NCBI RefSeq assembly: GCF_003385235.1
Contig: NZ_PQIA01000014.1
Span: forward strand, 62,001 to 126,000
Direction of reading: 5' to 3'
Length of the DNA: 64,000 bases
Origin: Amycolatopsis circi
GTDB taxonomy: Bacteria > Actinomycetota > Actinomycetes > Mycobacteriales > Pseudonocardiaceae
Below, piece by piece: positions 47,637-56,946 of this stretch. A program made the position numbers and the translations under genes. Numbering within the stretch: the stretch's first letter is position 1; each line of letters opens with the position of its first letter. Below the pieces are notes generated by a model. The model saw only the letters and a program-made list of their open reading frames with translations. It ran no database searches and was not told the origin of the DNA.

Positions 47637-48308
47637 ATGACGCAGGTACTGCTCGTCGAGGACGACGACGTGATCCGGGAGGCGACGCAGCTCGCGCTAG
47701 AACGCGCCGGTTTCCGGGTCTCGACGGCCGCGGACGGGCTCGCCGGGCTCGACCAGTTCCGCGCGCAGCCGCCGGACGTGGCGTTGCTCGACGTGATGCT
47801 GCCCGGGCTCAACGGCGTCAGCCTGTGCCGCCGGATCCGCGAGGAAAGCCGGACGCCGGTGCTGATGGTCTCCGCCCGCGACGATTCGGTCGACGTCGTG
47901 CTCGGCCTCGAAGCCGGCGCCGACGACTACGTCACCAAACCGTTCGACACCGCGGTCCTGATCGCGCGGATCCAGGCGGTGCTGCGGCGAAGCGGCTGGT
48001 CCGGGCCGGAGGAGGACGCGTTCGTTCGCTTCGGCGACCTCGAAATCGACCGCGCCGGGCTGGAGGTGCGCCGAGCAGGCCAGCCGGTGGATCTGACGCC
48101 GACCGAACTGCGGCTGCTGCTCCGGTTCGCCGAATCGCCGGGCAACGTGCTCAGCCGCGACACGCTGCTGGCCAGCGTGTGGGATTACGCGTGGGGCGGC
48201 GACACGCGGGTGGTCGACGTCCACGTGCAGCGGCTGCGGGTGAAGATCGGTCAGGAACGGCTGCAAACCGTGCGGGGCTTCGGATACAAGCTCCGCGCCG
48301 AGCCGTGA
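47637..48308 (+). CDS. OmpR/PhoB-type response regulator (CseB-like)
   Basis: This 223-residue protein starts at ATG 47637 behind GAGAGGGG. The receiver domain has acidic LLVEDDDVI (about 5-13), phospho-acceptor Asp in VALLDVMLPGLNG (about 52), and Lys in DDYVTKPFDT (about 101). The winged helix (about 125-222) has LTPTELRLLLRFAESPGNVLSRDTLLASVWDYAWGGDTRVVDVHVQRLRVKIG and ends VRGFGYKL. It is phosphorylated by the kinase encoded next, whose GTG overlaps its TGA. Likely role: envelope-stress control, by analogy to Cse. Confidence 0.95.
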   Translation: MTQVLLVEDDDVIREATQLALERAGFRVSTAADGLAGLDQFRAQPPDVALLDVMLPGLNGVSLCRRIREESRTPVLMVSARDDSVDVVLGLEAGADDYVTKPFDTAVLIARIQAVLRRSGWSGPEEDAFVRFGDLEIDRAGLEVRRAGQPVDLTPTELRLLLRFAESPGNVLSRDTLLASVWDYAWGGDTRVVDVHVQRLRVKIGQERLQTVRGFGYKLRAEP

Positions 48309-49507
48309 AGCTCTTTCCGGCCACCCTCCGGTGGCGGCTGACCGCGGCGGTGACCCTCGTGTCGGCCGCCGTCGCGTTGACGTTGAGTTTGTTGGTGCAC
48401 CAGCAATTCGCGCGCACCCAAGCCGAGCAGGCCCGTCATGCGCAGGACGAATGGATCCAGCTGCTGCTGCGCAACCCCGGTGTCGACGGCCAGTTCGACG
48501 ATCCGACGCTGCCCGCTCCCCTGCGCGACGCCGTCCGCGGCGGCAACCGAGCGACCTATTTGGACGGTCCGGTTTTGTGGGCAGCCGCCGAAACTGGCGG
48601 ACACGTCGTCTCGGTGCGGACCAGTTATGCGTCGCAAACGCAGGCACTGGCCACTTTGGACCGAGAATTGCTGGCCGGTTCCGCCGTAGTGACCGTCGCC
48701 GGAGCACTACTGGGTGTCGTGCTCGGAGCGGGGATGGCGCGACGGCTCCGGCGGGCCGCCGACGCTGCCCGCGACGTCGCGAACGGCGCTCCGGCAAGGG
48801 TGCGTGACGCGATCGGCCCGCGTCCGCGAGACGAAGCGGCCGATCTCGCCCAGGCTGTCGACGCGATGGCGGACGCGTTGCAGGCGCGGTTGGCCGCGGA
48901 ACAACGGGTCACCGCGGACATCGCGCACGAACTGCGGACCCCGGTGACCGGCTTGGTGACCGCTGCCGAACTGCTGCCGCCCGGACGCCCGGCGGAGTTG
49001 GTCCGCGACCGGGTCGCCGCGCTGCGCTCGCTGGTGGAGGACGTGCTGGAGGTGGCCCGGTTGGACACCGCGGCCGAGCGGGCGGATCTGGCGGAGATCG
49101 ACCTGGCGGAGTTCGTGCGCCGCCGGGTGCCGGACGCGGTCGCTCCGGTCGCGGTCCGGGTGTGGACGGATCCCCGGCGGTTGGAGCGGATCCTGGCGAA
49201 CCTGCTGTCGAACGCGGCGAAACACGGGGCCGCGCCAGTGACGGTCGAGGTGGCCGGCCGGTGCGTGACGGTCAGCGACCGGGGGCCGGGATATCCGGAG
49301 GTGCTGATTCGGGAAGGGCCCGCCCGGTTCCGGACCGGCGCGGACGCACGCGGCGGCGGGCACGGGCTGGGATTGACGATCGCGGTCGCACAGGCGCGGG
49401 TGCTGGGCGCCGAGCTGGAGTTCGAAAACCCGCCCGGCGGCGGAGCACGGGCGGTGCTGCGATTGCCAGAGTTGGCGAGCCGTGAGGGGAACCCTGAGGG
49501 ACTCTGA
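48305..49507 (+). CDS. Sensor histidine kinase (CseC-like)
   Basis: This protein has 400 residues and starts at GTG 48305 (GTGA overlap). TM1 spans about 12-32, an extracytoplasmic sensor about 33-120, TM2 about 128-150, and a HAMP-like linker 150-200. The H-box ADIAHELRTPVTGLVTAAELL has the phospho-His near residue 211. N-box LERILANLLSNAAKHG is at about 298, followed by G boxes VSDRGPGYP and GGGHGLGLTIAVAQA. The final REGNPEGL and stop come from palindromic repeat copy 5, as in the MFS at 44389; the catalytic domain ends before it, near LPELAS. Confidence 0.93.
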   Translation: MKLFPATLRWRLTAAVTLVSAAVALTLSLLVHQQFARTQAEQARHAQDEWIQLLLRNPGVDGQFDDPTLPAPLRDAVRGGNRATYLDGPVLWAAAETGGHVVSVRTSYASQTQALATLDRELLAGSAVVTVAGALLGVVLGAGMARRLRRAADAARDVANGAPARVRDAIGPRPRDEAADLAQAVDAMADALQARLAAEQRVTADIAHELRTPVTGLVTAAELLPPGRPAELVRDRVAALRSLVEDVLEVARLDTAAERADLAEIDLAEFVRRRVPDAVAPVAVRVWTDPRRLERILANLLSNAAKHGAAPVTVEVAGRCVTVSDRGPGYPEVLIREGPARFRTGADARGGGHGLGLTIAVAQARVLGAELEFENPPGGGARAVLRLPELASREGNPEGL

Positions 49508-49970: not shown

Positions 49971-52900
49971 ATGTGGTCGCAGAAGAGACGGGTGGCCGCG
50001 ATCGCTGCGGCGGGCCTCGTGGTGGCCGGGCTGGTGTCCGGCACGACCGGCGCCGCCACCGCGAGCACGGCCGCGGCGGATCCGGTGTCGCTGGTCAACC
50101 CGTTCGTCGGCACGCAGAACTTCGGCAACACCTTCCCCGGGGCCAGCGCGCCCTTCGGCATGGTCCAGGTCAGCCCGGACACCGGCGGCCAAGGCGGCTA
50201 CGACTACCAGCAGAATTCGATCTACGGCTTCAGCCAGACGCACCTCTCCGGCGTCGGCTGCGGCGTCATGGGCGAGCTGCCGGTCATGCCGACCACCGGG
50301 GCCGTCGACTCCGTCGACAAGAACTCCTACAAATCCGAGTACAGCCACGACGACGAGAAGGCCGAGCCCGGCTACTACCGCGTCGGGTTGAAGAAGTACG
50401 GCGTCAACGCCGAACTCACCGCCACTCCGCGCACCGGCTGGCAGCGCTACACCTTCCCGTCGACCGGCCAGGCCAACGTGCTGTTCAACACCGGCCAGGC
50501 GAACCAGTCCGTGAAGGATTCCGAAATCCACGTCGTCGGCGACCGGACCCTGGAGGGTCGCGTGCGCGCGGGCGGGTTCTGCGCCGGACACGACGAGCAC
50601 ACCGTCTACTTCACCGCGACCTTTGACCGCCCGTTCGCCTCCTACGGCACCTGGCGCGGCAACACCCGCAGCGCGGGCAGCCGCGACGCCGCGGGCACCG
50701 GCGGCAACGGCGCGTGGGTCAGCTTCGACGCTGCCGCTGACCACGACGTCGTCCTCAAGGTGGGGCTCTCCTACACCGGTCTCGCTGGCGCGCGCGAAAA
50801 CCTCACCGCGGAGACCAGCGACAGCTACGACTTCGACGCCACCCGCGCCGCATTGCGCAAGCAGTGGGCGGACCGGCTCGGCGCGATCAACATCAGCGGC
50901 GGCACCACCGAACGACAGACCGCGTTCTACACCTCGCTCTATCACGCGCAACTGCATCCGAACCTGGCTGGCGACATCAGCGGCGACTATGCCGGTTTCG
51001 ACGGCAAGGTCCACCGTGCCAACGGCTACACGCCGTATCAGAACTTCTCCCTCTGGGACACCTATCGCCCGCAGAACCAGCTGCTCGAAATGCTGGAACC
51101 GCAGGTAGCCCGGGATGTCGCGCTCTCCGTGGTCGCGATCGGCCGCGACGGCGGCTGGCTGCCGAGATGGGCGCTGGCGGGCAGCGAAACCAACATCATG
51201 ACCGGCGATCCAGTAACGCCGTTCTTGGTCGAGGCCTGGTCGAAGGGCTTGCTGGCCGGGCACGAGGACGAGGCGTACGGGCTGCTCAAGAAGAACGCCA
51301 CGAGCACACCGCCCGCTGATTCGCCGTACAACGGCCGCTCCGGCGTGAATTACTACAACGACCGCGGCTATATCCCGAGCGGTCTCACGCTCGGCAAGGA
51401 CTGCGCGGCCAAGGGCGGCGACAACGACTGCGAGCATCCGACCTCGGCGACCATGGAGTACTCCGCCGCCGACGCCGCGCTCGCGTTGATGGCCAAGGGC
51501 TTGGGCCACCAGGCCGACGCGCGCATGTTCGCCGATCGCGGCCAGTGGTACCGCAACGTCTGGAACGCCGCCGACAAGCAGTTCCGTCCGCGCACCACGG
51601 ACGGCACCTGGCTGACGCCGTACAACCCGGTCGACGCCGACCACCAGTTCCACGAGGGCGGCGCCTACCAGTACCAGTGGCTGGTCCCGCAGGATCCGGC
51701 CGGGCTCACCTCGCTGATGGGCGGCAAGCAGGCGACCGAGAAGCGGCTCGACTCCTTCTTCGCCTACGACAACCTGCTCAAGGACCCGGCGGGCACCGCG
51801 CGCAAGGACTGGATCGCCAGCCCGTACGACTACTACGCCAAGGCCACCTACAACCCCAACAACGAACCCGATCTCCTTTCGCCATACATGTACAACTGGG
51901 TCGGTGCCCCGGCGAAGACCGCGACCGTCGTCCGCGCGGCGATGACGTTGTTCACCACCGGCCCGGACGGCATGACCGGCAACGACGACCTCGGCACGAT
52001 GTCCGCCTGGTACGTCTTCTCCTCGCTCGGCCTGTACCCGACGATGAGCGGCGCGAACTTCCTCGCCGTGTCCAGCCCGCAGTTCGAATCGGCGACTGTC
52101 CGGATCGGACAGTACGAGGGCAAGCAAGGCGGCACGCTCACTGTCACCGCGCCGGGTGCGAGCGACACGAACCGTTACGTGCAAACCGTTTCGCTCAACG
52201 GGCGGGACGTCCGGCAGACCTGGCTCGACTGGTCCGCGGTCGCGCACGGCGGCAAGCTCGCCTACCAAGTCGGCGCGACGCCGTCGAACTGGGGCACGCA
52301 GCCGGGCACGGAACCGCCGTCGGTGAACAAGGCGACCGGTGACCTCCGTCGACATGTGGACGCGACGCTGCGGCCGAGTTCCGTCGTGCTGCCGCAGCAA
52401 TCCTCGGCACAGACTGTCCACTTGAACCTGGACGTGCTCGGCCAGAACCCCGGAGCACAGCCGGTCTTCGTGACCGCGTCAGCCCCGTCCGGCTGGCGGG
52501 TGCAGACCGATCCGCTGCAGTTGTTGTGGTCCTTCCGGCTGCCGACGCAGAAGACCGCGCCGGTCACCGTGACCGTTCCGGCGAACACGCCAGTCGGCCC
52601 GTATTCGGTGCAGCTCAAGGCATCCGGGCCGGGAGCGAATACCGTCACCCGCACCGCGAACATCGAGGTCCGGCAACCGACGGTGTGCGCGACGACGTCC
52701 GGAACGCAGTGCGCGGTCCATCTCAGCCACGACCGCAATCACGACGGGACTGCGACCGTCGCGGCGTCCACGGAAGGCAACTTCGACGGCAGCGGCTGGA
52801 GTTACGACGCGGACCTGATGCCGTCAGCCGGTACCTTCGTCCACAATGGAGTTACGTACGCAGCTCCCGACCCCACCGGCACTGCGGCGAACTTCGTGGA

Positions 52901-53243
52901 AGCACGCGGGCAATCGCTGCTGCTGCCCGCCGGAAAGCACCAGGCGGTCCAGCTGATCGGCTCGTCGCACAACGGTCCGGTGTCCACCTCGCTGACCGTG
53001 CACTACAGCGACGGATCCAGCGCGGACCTTCCGGTGACCTTCGGCGACTGGGCTGGCTCGACCCCGTCCGGCACTACCGTCGTGCTCGACATGGCGCACC
53101 GTATCAAGGCGGGCAGCGGGGTCGACGGTCCGCCGGTGCGGCTGTTCGGCATTGCCTCCACAGTGGACGGAGCCAAGACCGTCCAGTCGGTGAGCCTGCC
53201 GAACGACCCGCGCGTCCAGCTCTACGCGATCACGCTCGGCTGA
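49971..53243 (+). CDS. Secreted GH92 alpha-mannosidase with C-terminal accessory domains
   Basis: ATG 49971 (GGAGG ten bases upstream) gives 1090 residues. Signal peptide to about 35 (RRVAAIAAAGLVVAGLVSGTTGAATASTAAA). The N-terminal GH92 domain opens PVSLVNPFVGTQNFGNTFPGASAPFGMVQVSPDT. The catalytic (alpha/alpha)6 part has FSLWDTYRPQNQLLEMLEP (about 357), HPTSATMEYSAADAALALMAKGLG and the hallmark GPDGMTGNDDLGTMSAWYVFSSLGLYP (about 664-690). A NEW3-like domain (about 790-905) and a second beta domain (about 910-1090) follow. It trims alpha-mannosides, calcium-dependent, outside the cell. Probably induced by loss of LacI-type repression. Confidence 0.95.
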   Translation: MWSQKRRVAAIAAAGLVVAGLVSGTTGAATASTAAADPVSLVNPFVGTQNFGNTFPGASAPFGMVQVSPDTGGQGGYDYQQNSIYGFSQTHLSGVGCGVMGELPVMPTTGAVDSVDKNSYKSEYSHDDEKAEPGYYRVGLKKYGVNAELTATPRTGWQRYTFPSTGQANVLFNTGQANQSVKDSEIHVVGDRTLEGRVRAGGFCAGHDEHTVYFTATFDRPFASYGTWRGNTRSAGSRDAAGTGGNGAWVSFDAAADHDVVLKVGLSYTGLAGARENLTAETSDSYDFDATRAALRKQWADRLGAINISGGTTERQTAFYTSLYHAQLHPNLAGDISGDYAGFDGKVHRANGYTPYQNFSLWDTYRPQNQLLEMLEPQVARDVALSVVAIGRDGGWLPRWALAGSETNIMTGDPVTPFLVEAWSKGLLAGHEDEAYGLLKKNATSTPPADSPYNGRSGVNYYNDRGYIPSGLTLGKDCAAKGGDNDCEHPTSATMEYSAADAALALMAKGLGHQADARMFADRGQWYRNVWNAADKQFRPRTTDGTWLTPYNPVDADHQFHEGGAYQYQWLVPQDPAGLTSLMGGKQATEKRLDSFFAYDNLLKDPAGTARKDWIASPYDYYAKATYNPNNEPDLLSPYMYNWVGAPAKTATVVRAAMTLFTTGPDGMTGNDDLGTMSAWYVFSSLGLYPTMSGANFLAVSSPQFESATVRIGQYEGKQGGTLTVTAPGASDTNRYVQTVSLNGRDVRQTWLDWSAVAHGGKLAYQVGATPSNWGTQPGTEPPSVNKATGDLRRHVDATLRPSSVVLPQQSSAQTVHLNLDVLGQNPGAQPVFVTASAPSGWRVQTDPLQLLWSFRLPTQKTAPVTVTVPANTPVGPYSVQLKASGPGANTVTRTANIEVRQPTVCATTSGTQCAVHLSHDRNHDGTATVAASTEGNFDGSGWSYDADLMPSAGTFVHNGVTYAAPDPTGTAANFVEARGQSLLLPAGKHQAVQLIGSSHNGPVSTSLTVHYSDGSSADLPVTFGDWAGSTPSGTTVVLDMAHRIKAGSGVDGPPVRLFGIASTVDGAKTVQSVSLPNDPRVQLYAITLG

Positions 53244-53332: not shown

Positions 53333-55354
53333 TCAGGCGGCTTGACCCGCGGGCACCGCCGCGACCCGGCCCATCGCCTCGGCGTAGCAGGCTTCGAAAG
53401 AATCCAAACTGGACTCCAGCGCGTGCCCGGCGATCATCTTGCCGCTCGCCGCCCCCATCCGCGCCAGCGTCGCCGGGTCGGCGACGACCGCGTGCAGCCG
53501 CTCGGCCAGTTGCCCCACGTTGCCCGGCTCGAACAGCCAGCCGTTGTAGCCCGGACGGCACAGGTGCGGCAACGCCATCGCGTCCGCGACCACCACCGGC
53601 TTCCCGGCCGCCATCGCCTCCATCGTCGCGAGGCTCTGCAGTTCGGCGATGCCGGGCATGCAGAAGAGATCCGCGGCCGCGTAGGCGTCCAGCAAGTCCT
53701 CTTCGGACACAAACCCGCGGAATCGCACCCGGTCGGCGATCCCGAGTTCGTCGGCCAGCTTCTCCCAGCCCGTCCGGCACGAACCGTCGCCGACGATCTC
53801 CGCGCGCAACCCGGGCACGAGCGCCACCGCGCGCAACAGCTCGTCGACGCGCTTCTCTTCGTCAAGCCGCCCGACGAACAACACCGTCGGATCGTCGGAC
53901 GTCCGCGAAACCTTGCGCAACCGGTAGCGGTCGATGTCGATGCCGCACGACACTGGAATGGCTCGCTCCGGGAAACCGTTGTCGTGCAACAGTTCCACCG
54001 CACGCGGCGTCGGCGCGGTGACCACGCGGGCCGTCGAGAACACTCGCGTCAAGTCCCGCCACGCCCACCGCGAAGCCGCACCGCGCAGCCACGTCGGCAC
54101 GCGCACGTGACCGAAGAGGTTCTCCGGCATGAAGTGGTTCGTCGCCACTCCCGGAATGCCCATCGCGGCGGCATGCTTCAGGACGTACCGGCCGACCACG
54201 AAATGCGCCTGGACGTGCACAAGATCCGGCTGCAACTCCTCCAGCAGCGCAGCGACGTCCTTGCTCACCTCCCATGGCAGGCCGATCCGGAAGGTCCGGT
54301 GGAACGGGGTGCGATGCGACCGGACCCGGTGCACCACAACGTCGCCAGCTCTTTCGGTGCGCGCCGGGCCGTCCGGGGCGACACTGATCACGTGCACCTC
54401 GTGCCCGCGGCCGGCGAGGCCGTTGGACAGCCGGTACGCGAACTGCGCCGCGCCGTTGACGTCCGGCGGATAGGTTTCGGCGGCGACCACGATGCGCAAA
54501 GCCCGGTCGTCGTTCACAGGGTGCTCCGATCTGGTGGAATGGACAGGAGAAGAACTGCTGCGGCTCAACACCGCGACGCCGCCGACCGCCAGGACCGCCG
54601 CGGTCAGCGCGACCGCGGTCGCCGTGGCGTCGAGGTGGGTGGCTTCGCCGAGCACCCCGGCGCCGAGACCCACCGCTACCAGCGGATCCACGACGGTCAG
54701 GCACGCGACGGCGAGGTGCGGCGGACCGCACCGGTAGGACAGTTGCACGAGCCAGCCGCCGGCCAGCAGCGCCGTCACCATGGCGGCGACCGACACCGCG
54801 GTGCTGAAGTCGACGGTGCCCTCTTGTATTTCAAGGGAAACCGCTCGCATCAATACCGAGACGAAGCCGTACGCAGCGCCGCCGGCCGCGCCGAAACACA
54901 GCCCGCGGACCGACGGGCGAGAAGAAATCGCGCCGATCAAAGTCAGCAGCGCCATGGCCCCCAGCACCAGCAACGCCGCCCGCGTTTGCGCGTCGGCACC
55001 GACCGCGGTGCTCGTGGTGCTGCCCGCGGCGACGGTCACGAACGTCCCGACGCCGAGCATGGTGACCGCGACCGCGGGCAGATCCCGCCGCCGCCGGTCG
55101 AGAATCGCGGTAATCGCAACGGCAATCACCCCGACCGGCTGCACGACAGTCAGCGGAGCCATCCCCAACGCGACCGCGTGCACGCCCGCCCCCGACCCCA
55201 GCAGCGCCAGGCCGCCGAGCCAGCGCGGCGCCCGGATCAGCTCGCCGATCCGCGGTCGGCCCGGCAGCCCGGTGACCACCCCGTGCTGCAGAAGTGCGCC
55301 GGTGGAAAAGAAAACCGCGCCGAGCACAGCAAGCGCGATGGCGATGATCGTCAT
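53333..55354 (-). CDS. Fusion of DMT/NIPA-like membrane transporter and GT4 glycosyltransferase
   Basis: One uninterrupted frame from ATG 55354 codes for 673 residues. Residues 1-275 form about nine or ten TM helices of DMT type (IIAIALAVLGAVFFSTGALLQHGVV; LGMAPLTVVQPVGVIAVAITAILDRR). Residues 285-673 are a GT-B glycosyltransferase of family 4: AAETYPPDVNGAAQFAYRLSNGLAGRGHEVHV, VLFVGRLDEEKRVDELLRAV (about 485) and the E-x7-E segment ELQSLATMEAMAAGKPVV. An internal GTG at 54517 (residue 280) with GGAG six bases upstream could let the GT also be made alone. The gene overlaps the DUF998 gene by 4 bases. Coupling sugar transfer to membrane transport is inference. Confidence 0.8.
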   Translation of the reverse strand: MTIIAIALAVLGAVFFSTGALLQHGVVTGLPGRPRIGELIRAPRWLGGLALLGSGAGVHAVALGMAPLTVVQPVGVIAVAITAILDRRRRDLPAVAVTMLGVGTFVTVAAGSTTSTAVGADAQTRAALLVLGAMALLTLIGAISSRPSVRGLCFGAAGGAAYGFVSVLMRAVSLEIQEGTVDFSTAVSVAAMVTALLAGGWLVQLSYRCGPPHLAVACLTVVDPLVAVGLGAGVLGEATHLDATATAVALTAAVLAVGGVAVLSRSSSSPVHSTRSEHPVNDDRALRIVVAAETYPPDVNGAAQFAYRLSNGLAGRGHEVHVISVAPDGPARTERAGDVVVHRVRSHRTPFHRTFRIGLPWEVSKDVAALLEELQPDLVHVQAHFVVGRYVLKHAAAMGIPGVATNHFMPENLFGHVRVPTWLRGAASRWAWRDLTRVFSTARVVTAPTPRAVELLHDNGFPERAIPVSCGIDIDRYRLRKVSRTSDDPTVLFVGRLDEEKRVDELLRAVALVPGLRAEIVGDGSCRTGWEKLADELGIADRVRFRGFVSEEDLLDAYAAADLFCMPGIAELQSLATMEAMAAGKPVVVADAMALPHLCRPGYNGWLFEPGNVGQLAERLHAVVADPATLARMGAASGKMIAGHALESSLDSFEACYAEAMGRVAAVPAGQAA

Positions 55355-55983
55355 GAGGCCACCTCGGCTCGCGCCATCGCGGTGACGGCGAAGAGTTGTG
55401 CGTAGAGCAGTGCGTACAGCAAACGTTCGAACAACCCCAGGAACTCGGGCACGGACTGCTCCAGCAAGGGCACGTGCGCCAGCAGAAAGGCGAGCGAGGC
55501 GGCGCCGGACGCCAAGGAAAGCCAGCGCACCGCCTTCGCTTCCGGACGCCGGCGCGCCAGCAACCAGCCCGCCAGCGGCAGGCACACGAACATCGCCGCG
55601 CCCGCATATCGGTGCACCGCACCGGAAAACGACGTTTCCACGCCGGTCGGATCAGTCGGGAAGAACGTCGCGATGACCAGTCCCGCCACCCACAGCGCGA
55701 TCAGCACCGACTCCGGGCCGTGTTTCGGCAGCCCCTGCCGGAGCAGCGCGTGCCGGACCGCCAGCGACGCCCCGGCCAGCCCGAGCGAGGCCGCCGCCAG
55801 GAGCACCGCCCCGCCGGGAGGGAAGACGTAGTCGCTGATGACGTCGCGGACCGGGTCGATCGTGCCCGCCGCCACCACGTGCAGCAGGAGGATCGGCACC
55901 AGCGAAAAAGCCAAGGCCGCGGCGGCGATCGCGGGCGCCGTCGCGCTGCTCTTCCGCGTTATGAGGGTCACATCGATCAGCAT
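55351..55983 (-). CDS. DUF998 family membrane protein
   Basis: This 210-residue protein has six hydrophobic helices. It opens with a short basic N-terminus and AIAAAALAFSLVPILLLHVVAAGTIDPVRDVISDYVFPPGGA, where SDYV is the DUF998 landmark. Later FFPTDPTGVETSFSGAVHRYAGAAMFVCLPLAGWLLARR carries the conserved FPTDP and HRYAG motifs. DUF998 proteins are of unknown function. Its TGA overlaps the ATG of the DMT-GT4 fusion, so the two act together, perhaps in building or exporting an envelope glycolipid. Confidence 0.9.
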   Translation of the reverse strand: MLIDVTLITRKSSATAPAIAAAALAFSLVPILLLHVVAAGTIDPVRDVISDYVFPPGGAVLLAAASLGLAGASLAVRHALLRQGLPKHGPESVLIALWVAGLVIATFFPTDPTGVETSFSGAVHRYAGAAMFVCLPLAGWLLARRRPEAKAVRWLSLASGAASLAFLLAHVPLLEQSVPEFLGLFERLLYALLYAQLFAVTAMARAEVAS

Positions 55984-56376: not shown

Positions 56377-56946
56377 ATGCAGAGGGCACTCGTCAAGGCG
56401 GTCGTCGGGGCCGCAGCCGTCGTCGCGCTGGTCAGCGCGTGCGGGTCGGGCGGATCGAACGACTCGTCCGGATCCGGAGCGTCCGGGCAGAACAGCGCCC
56501 AGTCCAGCGGAGCCGCCCAGTCCGGGCAGAACGGCGCGTCCGGGCAGAACGCCGCGTCCGGCGAGAACGGGGCGCCTGGCCAGAACGGGGCCGCCGGGCA
56601 GAACGGGCCGGCCGCACAGGCGGTCACCGCCGCGATCCAGCAGGCCTCGCAGGCCTCGCCGATCAAGTTCGAGCCGGAGAAGGCGGAATTGACCGGCAAG
56701 GCCAAGGAAGGCCTGGCCGCGGTCGCGAAAGCCATGCAGGGCAACGATGTCAAGCTGAAGGTCGTGACCCACGCCGGCTACCCGGACGCGGACAAGGCGA
56801 AGAAGCTTTCCGAGGAGCGCGCACAGGCGATTTCGACCGCGCTCGAGAGCGACGGCGTCGCCAAGGACCGCGTGCAAAGCGAGCCGAGCGGAAGCGAAAA
56901 CGCACAGGGCGACCAGGCGTTGGAAACGCAGCTCAGCGTCGCGTAG
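56377..56946 (+). CDS. OmpA-like lipoprotein with GQN-repeat linker
   Basis: ATG 56377, with AAGGAG ten bases upstream, gives 189 residues. The lipoprotein signal MQRALVKAVVGAAAVVALVSACGSG has lipobox VSAC. A low-complexity linker (about 25-85) repeats the block GQNGA/GQNxAxG five or six times (SGQNGASGQNAASGENGAPGQNGAAGQNG). The C-terminal domain (about 95-189: IKFEPEKAELTGKAKEGLAAVAKAMQ, LKVVTHAGYPDADKAKKLSEERAQAISTAL) is OmpA-like and may bind peptidoglycan, though the usual Asp-Arg pair is not clear. It is probably anchored to the outer face of the membrane and spanned to the wall by the linker. Confidence 0.82.
   Translation: MQRALVKAVVGAAAVVALVSACGSGGSNDSSGSGASGQNSAQSSGAAQSGQNGASGQNAASGENGAPGQNGAAGQNGPAAQAVTAAIQQASQASPIKFEPEKAELTGKAKEGLAAVAKAMQGNDVKLKVVTHAGYPDADKAKKLSEERAQAISTALESDGVAKDRVQSEPSGSENAQGDQALETQLSVA

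Follow-up and report, generated by a model that had tools for sequence, protein, structure and literature searches.

The question raised by this locus is whether one gene makes one protein or two. In the 64,000-nucleotide stretch of the Amycolatopsis circi genome that we analysed (the window), a gene on the minus strand (53333..55354) encodes a DMT/NIPA-like membrane domain followed by a GT4 glycosyltransferase (GT), and its 673 codons form a single frame with no stop from the ATG at 55354 to the terminal stop. An earlier note on this DNA had described a DMT-like part and a complete GT-B enzyme sharing one frame; the 673-residue open frame, its Pfam GT domains and the equal architecture of its relatives bear this out. 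The closest named matches of the fused gene are from Amycolatopsis, and a search of 80 genomes of the genus returned 42 matches in 35 genomes (E value of 1 × 10−60 or better). Forty of these 42 were near full-length fusions without internal stops, distributed over 34 of the 80 genomes, while the two GT-only matches (G031 and G067) had separate DMT and GT genes close by, G067 carrying a fused copy in addition. The window's own genome contains a second full-length fused copy (49% identity), likewise preceded by an overlapping DUF998 gene. Given this second copy and the 40 near full-length matches in the genus, the fusion is no chance event. The own genome is a draft of 305 contigs, which might suggest an error of sequencing or assembly, but the fused matches come from 34 independent genomes, some of them single-contig assemblies, and we consider such an error refuted for practical purposes. 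The DMT-GT4 fusion is thus confirmed. The own genome also holds a GT remnant of 195 amino acids from a GTG (L003, contig C273, 1468-2055, plus strand), located beside a histidine-kinase-like gene; it closely resembles the C-terminal half of the paralogue L002 and is probably a decayed partial duplicate.

We next characterized the two halves of the protein. The GT4 glycosyltransferase occupies residues 285-673, and each GT-B half scores above its Pfam gathering cut-off: PF13439 (Glyco_transf_4) at residues 299-476 with 94.5 bits (cut-off 28.5) and PF00534 (Glycos_transf_1) at residues 480-637 with 122.1 bits (cut-off 26.4). An AF2 model built from an alignment of 16 fused homologues (mean pLDDT 82.9, pTM 0.60) supported the GT-B fold, with matches to 6kih_A (Z 42.1, rmsd 2.5, 370 aligned residues) and 3c4q_A (Z 41.8); the solved structures matched by the GT part were sucrose-phosphate synthase, MshA, BshA and PimA (Z 42.1 to 38.1). 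Residues R496, K501, E571 and E579, aligned with MshA, are invariant across the 16 fused proteins, so the GT enzyme looks intact; we take R496 and K501 to be the donor-site Arg and Lys, and E571 and E579 to be the E-x7-E motif. The fused GT shares the GT-B fold and conserved donor-site residues with MshA/BshA/PimA-type GT4 enzymes but falls far short of NCBIfam equivalog cut-offs, and identity with MshA was rejected (TIGR03449, 95 bits against a cut-off of 462.5).

The membrane domain (approximately residues 2-267; 54554..55351, minus strand) scored below the family cut-offs, with 20.7 bits for PF05653 (Mg_trans_NIPA, cut-off 26.2) and 41 bits for NF038012 (NCBIfam DMT_1, cut-off 50), and we therefore limit its name to DMT/NIPA-like. 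A profile of 18 relatives reached NIPA2 (9z7s) at an E value of 2.2 × 10−4, over the first half only, and a fold search with the full-length model as query gave only GT matches among the matches listed. The earlier note had counted ten transmembrane segments; the AF2 model suggests nine membrane-length helices when the broken pair 68-75/77-85 is taken as one, a count that is not decisive. These helices are followed by a disordered linker (residues 267-282; 54509..54556, minus strand; pLDDT < 50) and then by the GT-B enzyme. By visual inspection, the placement of basic loop residues is consistent with an N-outside, C-inside topology, under which the GT part would sit in the cytosol.

The linker region carries a possible second start. 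A Shine-Dalgarno (SD) word, GGAG (54524..54527, minus strand), precedes with a spacer of 6 an in-frame GTG (54515..54517, minus strand) that is codon 280 of the fused frame. Initiation at the ATG at 55354 would yield the 673-residue protein, its C-terminal GT4 enzyme held on the cytosolic side by the DMT/NIPA-like domain, and initiation at the GTG at 54517 would yield a free GT of 394 residues with the GT-B fold (53333..54517, minus strand). To determine how often such a site occurs, we looked in the linkers of 86 distinct fused genes for an SD word 5 to 9 bases ahead of an in-frame ATG or GTG located 11 to 30 codons upstream of the GT motif. We found one in 75 of the 86, compared with 112 of 2491 (4.5%) equally sized control windows taken from other parts of these genes; L021 was dropped from this set and has no site, so that 12 of 87 genes lack it if L021 is included. 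A spacer of 6 predominates (68 of 75 sites). The site is present in 45 of the 54 fused representatives in our GT tree, though many of the 86 genes are close relatives with shared ancestry and the counts therefore overstate independence. The GTG with its SD word, proposed in the earlier note, is accordingly present and appears usable, with support much stronger than the sequence of one genome could give.

Within the window's subgroup (28 representatives), the codon pattern NNG-GAG-N6-GTG occurs in 26 of 28. The Glu codon inside the SD word is GAG in all 28, and the two codons between the SD word and the GTG vary freely. The GTG itself is found in 26 of 28, and the two genes without it (L056 and L063) instead carry an ATG one codon downstream. 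Codon 280 is one of only two single-codon columns among 45 conserved Val columns. Directly before the SD word, AGA appears in 18 of 28 rows, a codon used for only 7 of 1406 Arg residues in the window's 61 called genes. Immediately upstream of the site, GC3 drops to 0.43 where the site exists and is 0.87 in the genes lacking it; over whole genes the values are 0.92 and 0.94, respectively. In all 75 genes that have the site, the 50 surrounding bases of mRNA are predicted to fold less strongly than the gene average, and the same holds for 5 of the 11 genes that lack it. Taken together, the conservation of the SD word and start codon, the AGA, the dip in GC3 and the weak folding point to selection on the linker nucleotides as a start region. 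On the level of sequence, then, the internal SD word and start codon are conserved, and two products, the fused protein and a free GT, probably come from this one gene.

It is conceivable that the fusion is the sole product and that the internal SD word and start are a non-working leftover of a formerly separate GT gene, since the site clearly resembles the GT gene start in separate pairs and 11 of the 86 fused genes manage without it. We consider this improbable: a leftover would hardly be expected to persist across genera whose linkers have otherwise diverged, to keep codon 280 fixed, to be replaced by an ATG one codon downstream in both of the genes that lost the GTG, or to keep its surroundings weakly folded in every gene that has it.

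The 11 genes without a detected SD-linked start codon in the linker bear on the opposite question, whether the fused protein itself works. Nine of them are members of a single subgroup or similar to it (L019, L020, L022, L023, L024, L031, L168, L176 and L182), and the remaining two are L065 and L172. By sequence, the fusion is the sole route to an intact GT in these genes, so there the fused protein is probably a working product; by the same count, the free GT is not required everywhere. Alternatively, only the free GT may act as an enzyme, with the fusion arising as idle read-through after loss of a stop codon. In keeping with this, the internal start is strong and well conserved, and separate genes do work in other genera. 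However, the linker frame is still open in 86 distinct genes, and the genes lacking the site have no other route to an intact GT; we therefore regard an idle fusion as improbable and continue to favor two products. As a separate observation, L065 (G319) is the sole tree representative in the window's clade in which the internal SD word and start were lost and the fusion was retained.

Next, we examined where the fusion and its separate-gene relatives are found. Fusions of the same kind, which the earlier note had suggested looking for in other genomes, occur in the 34 genus genomes described above and in at least 11 other genera. By record title and among the matches listed, these include Saccharothrix, Lentzea, Umezawaea, Actinosynnema, Kibdelosporangium, Actinocrispum, Prauserella, Actinacidiphila, Glycomyces, Fodinicola and Rhodococcus rhodnii. 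The earlier note had named separate genes in every close relative as an outcome speaking against the fusion; this is not what we observed, as the fusion recurs within the genus. Separate adjacent DMT and GT genes were found, among the matches listed, in Pseudonocardia, Saccharopolyspora, Solihabitans, Arthrobacter, Nonomuraea, Brevibacterium and others. In Pseudonocardia, Saccharopolyspora, Arthrobacter and Nonomuraea these are the same families in the same order, often overlapping, and DUF998 is likewise present in several genera; unlike the window's gene, they are two genes with a stop between them. Two fused genes have unusual layouts: in L161 (Actinosynnema pretiosum) approximately 160 additional residues separate the DMT and GT parts within the fused frame, and in L171 (Kibdelosporangium philippinense) the DMT domain is split over two open frames approximately 1.5 kb apart, the second of which is fused to the GT.

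In a sample of the family, the DMT domain was matched in 239 of 297 genomes, paralogues included, and all 17 sampled stand-alone DMT loci (L088-L102, L106 and L107), chosen from the stronger stand-alone matches, had a GT4 gene directly downstream of the DMT gene. Among 19 more distant DMT loci in the class, 10 had an adjacent separate GT, 8 had no close GT neighbor, and L124, with a frame break between DMT and GT, was doubtful; for the family and class loci, as for the neighbor comparison below, genes were called with a simple script. In L079, another gene intervenes between the DMT and GT genes. Beyond these samples, 9 of 296 genomes in a phylum sample reached the strict limit, and outside the own genome the matches listed start at query residue 240 or later, which is the GT part. 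Only 4 of 72,556 plasmid records matched, with the GT half only.

To place the fused and separate forms on one phylogeny, we built a GT tree of 100 representatives, a quick tree with some long branches that omitted 32 loci without the anchor motif. The tree requires 7 changes between fused and separate states, or 6 without the doubtful L124 (placed as separate), counts in which gain and loss are indistinguishable, and an AU test rejected a single fused clade (p value 2.3 × 10−61). The sister of the window's clade (29 rows) is a separate, overlapping Solihabitans pair (support 90). Separate-gene relatives, Solihabitans included, show 4-base start/stop overlaps and an SD spacing equal to that of the fused genes. 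Of 48 distinct separate pairs, counted after skipping loci without the anchor motif, the phase of the 4-base start/stop overlap accounts for 22; another 19 share one frame with an intervening stop, and 7 fall in the third phase. The overlapping separate DMT-GT pair is the likely parent state of the fusion: the frames of such a pair may have become continuous with the ribosome-binding site of the GT retained, and some lineages would then have come to lack the internal site, leaving the fusion as their only product.

We assign a probability of roughly 0.65 to the reading as a whole, namely two products descended from a former overlapping pair, with lipid glycosylation and a DMT transport step as the function we infer. 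If it is true, the overlapping pair, the fusion with an internal start and the pure fusion form a natural series, from two genes through a fusion still able to yield free enzyme to a fusion alone, with a second protein predicted inside the 673-residue frame. The sections of a Salmonella census that we drew on (PMC11005335) describe N-terminal proteoform pairs arising from in-frame internal starts, which resemble the present case in that one gene with two starts in the same frame gives two proteins. Compared with the pairs in those sections, the predicted short form here would separate a complete enzyme from a complete membrane domain, and its initiation site seems to derive from that of a once separate gene. 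In the one openly licensed library that we searched, searches on such a fusion, on the DMT-GT pair and on internal starts in fused genes turned up no description of the DMT::GT4 fusion. The gene is real, conserved and unusual, an enzyme-transporter fusion with two predicted in-frame products.

What the module may do is suggested mainly by its neighbors. Upstream of the fused gene lies a DUF998 membrane protein gene of 210 amino acids (55351..55983, minus strand; PF06197, 82.8 bits against a cut-off of 30). The earlier note had paired the two genes by a 4-base overlap, and this holds, the DUF998 frame (55983..55351) running past the fused gene's start at 55354. A same-strand DUF998 gene accompanies 83 of the 86 distinct fused genes, and in 71 of the 86 its offset equals that seen in the window, where the two genes share 4 bases. 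The DUF998 fold had no informative match in the PDB (best Foldseek E value 0.5; best VIA Z 11.5, to a DpHF19 filament). DUF998 is reported with a six-helix fold common to Frag1/DRAM/Sfk1 (PMC10584675), and this, together with the neighbors, suggests lipid chemistry. Among the named Micrococcaceae loci, 15 of 17 carry a CDP-alcohol phosphatidyltransferase gene upstream of the DMT-GT genes (two other members were checked against Pfam). Against a lipid role, the lipid-linked neighbor genes vary by lineage, and the large neighbor in the window itself encodes a GH92 glycosidase. From these neighboring genes we infer that the GT may glycosylate a lipid moved by the DMT part, with DUF998 as partner: at the inner face, the fusion and DUF998 would place sugar on a lipid of the membrane or on a lipid-linked acceptor, and the glycosylated product would cross the membrane with help from the DMT part. 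The membrane glycosylation machine suggested in the earlier note is thus a reasonable reading of the gene neighborhoods. DUF998, DMT-like and GT4 proteins make up a recurring actinobacterial membrane module, a candidate glycolipid maker and exporter.

The module could instead glycosylate and export a soluble metabolite. MshA, BshA and sucrose-phosphate synthase, which are among the closest solved GTs, act on soluble acceptors, and metabolite export is common among DMT proteins. Against this, the lipid glycosyltransferase PimA is about equally close in fold (Z 38.1), a gene of phospholipid-synthase type precedes the pair in Micrococcaceae, and the fold reported for DUF998 is that of Frag1/DRAM/Sfk1 (PMC10584675); we hold a soluble product to be somewhat unlikely and prefer a lipid acceptor. 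The closest working analogy, with no homology claimed, is MprF, described as uniting a synthase and a flippase within one protein (PMC8131360). As in MprF, a lipid-modifying enzyme would be joined to a translocating membrane domain, both functions being putative here; in contrast to MprF, the folds and chemistry differ, with a GT4 enzyme on a DMT/NIPA-like domain and an internal start for the enzyme itself. By this analogy, the locus might be a glycolipid counterpart of MprF, with synthesis in the inner leaflet coupled to flipping, an internal start that sets how much enzyme is tethered and how much is free, and a third working part in DUF998. The overlapping pair, the fusion with an internal start and the pure fusion would then trace, stage by stage, the origin of a bifunctional membrane enzyme. 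We consider a counterpart in this full sense unlikely.

Finally, we noted several features of the neighborhoods. A CDP-alcohol phosphatidyltransferase gene stands before separate DMT-GT genes in L119 (4765-5346, plus strand), L120 (5310-5936, plus strand) and 16 more loci, mostly Micrococcaceae, and in L119 and L120 it overlaps the DMT gene. L211, from a record titled Acidobacteria bacterium isolate G2_11, has a Micrococcaceae-type operon that reflects contamination or transfer. The DUF998 match lies downstream of the GT, not upstream of the DMT, in L212, L213 and L214 (Spongiactinospora and Nonomuraea). Separate-gene loci have an alpha/beta hydrolase downstream in 18 cases and a second GT4 gene downstream in 19. 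Across the 133 loci compared, a histidine kinase of one cluster lies near 27 and a response regulator of one cluster near 24, clusters that may mix unrelated members owing to single linkage. In L073 (4322-9192, plus strand), a response regulator, histidine kinase, DUF998 and DMT::GT form a single gene run, which raises the possibility of two-component control for the second fused subtype. In the window, a large GH92 glycosidase gene with an NPCBM-associated domain (49992-53243, plus strand) is convergent to the fused gene, and a response regulator and histidine kinase (47637-49507, plus strand) lie upstream of it. GH92 was rejected as a constant partner, its protein cluster covering 7 loci that include L133, which centers on a distant DMT paralogue. 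At 28 loci of other genera the large neighbor falls in a patatin-like phospholipase cluster (members L081 and L085 were checked against Pfam), and we counted neither the GH92 nor the phospholipase neighbors as part of the system. The window also encodes, divergently from the DUF998 gene, a 189-residue protein (56377-56946, plus strand) in which an Ala/Gly/Gln-rich stretch precedes an OmpA domain.
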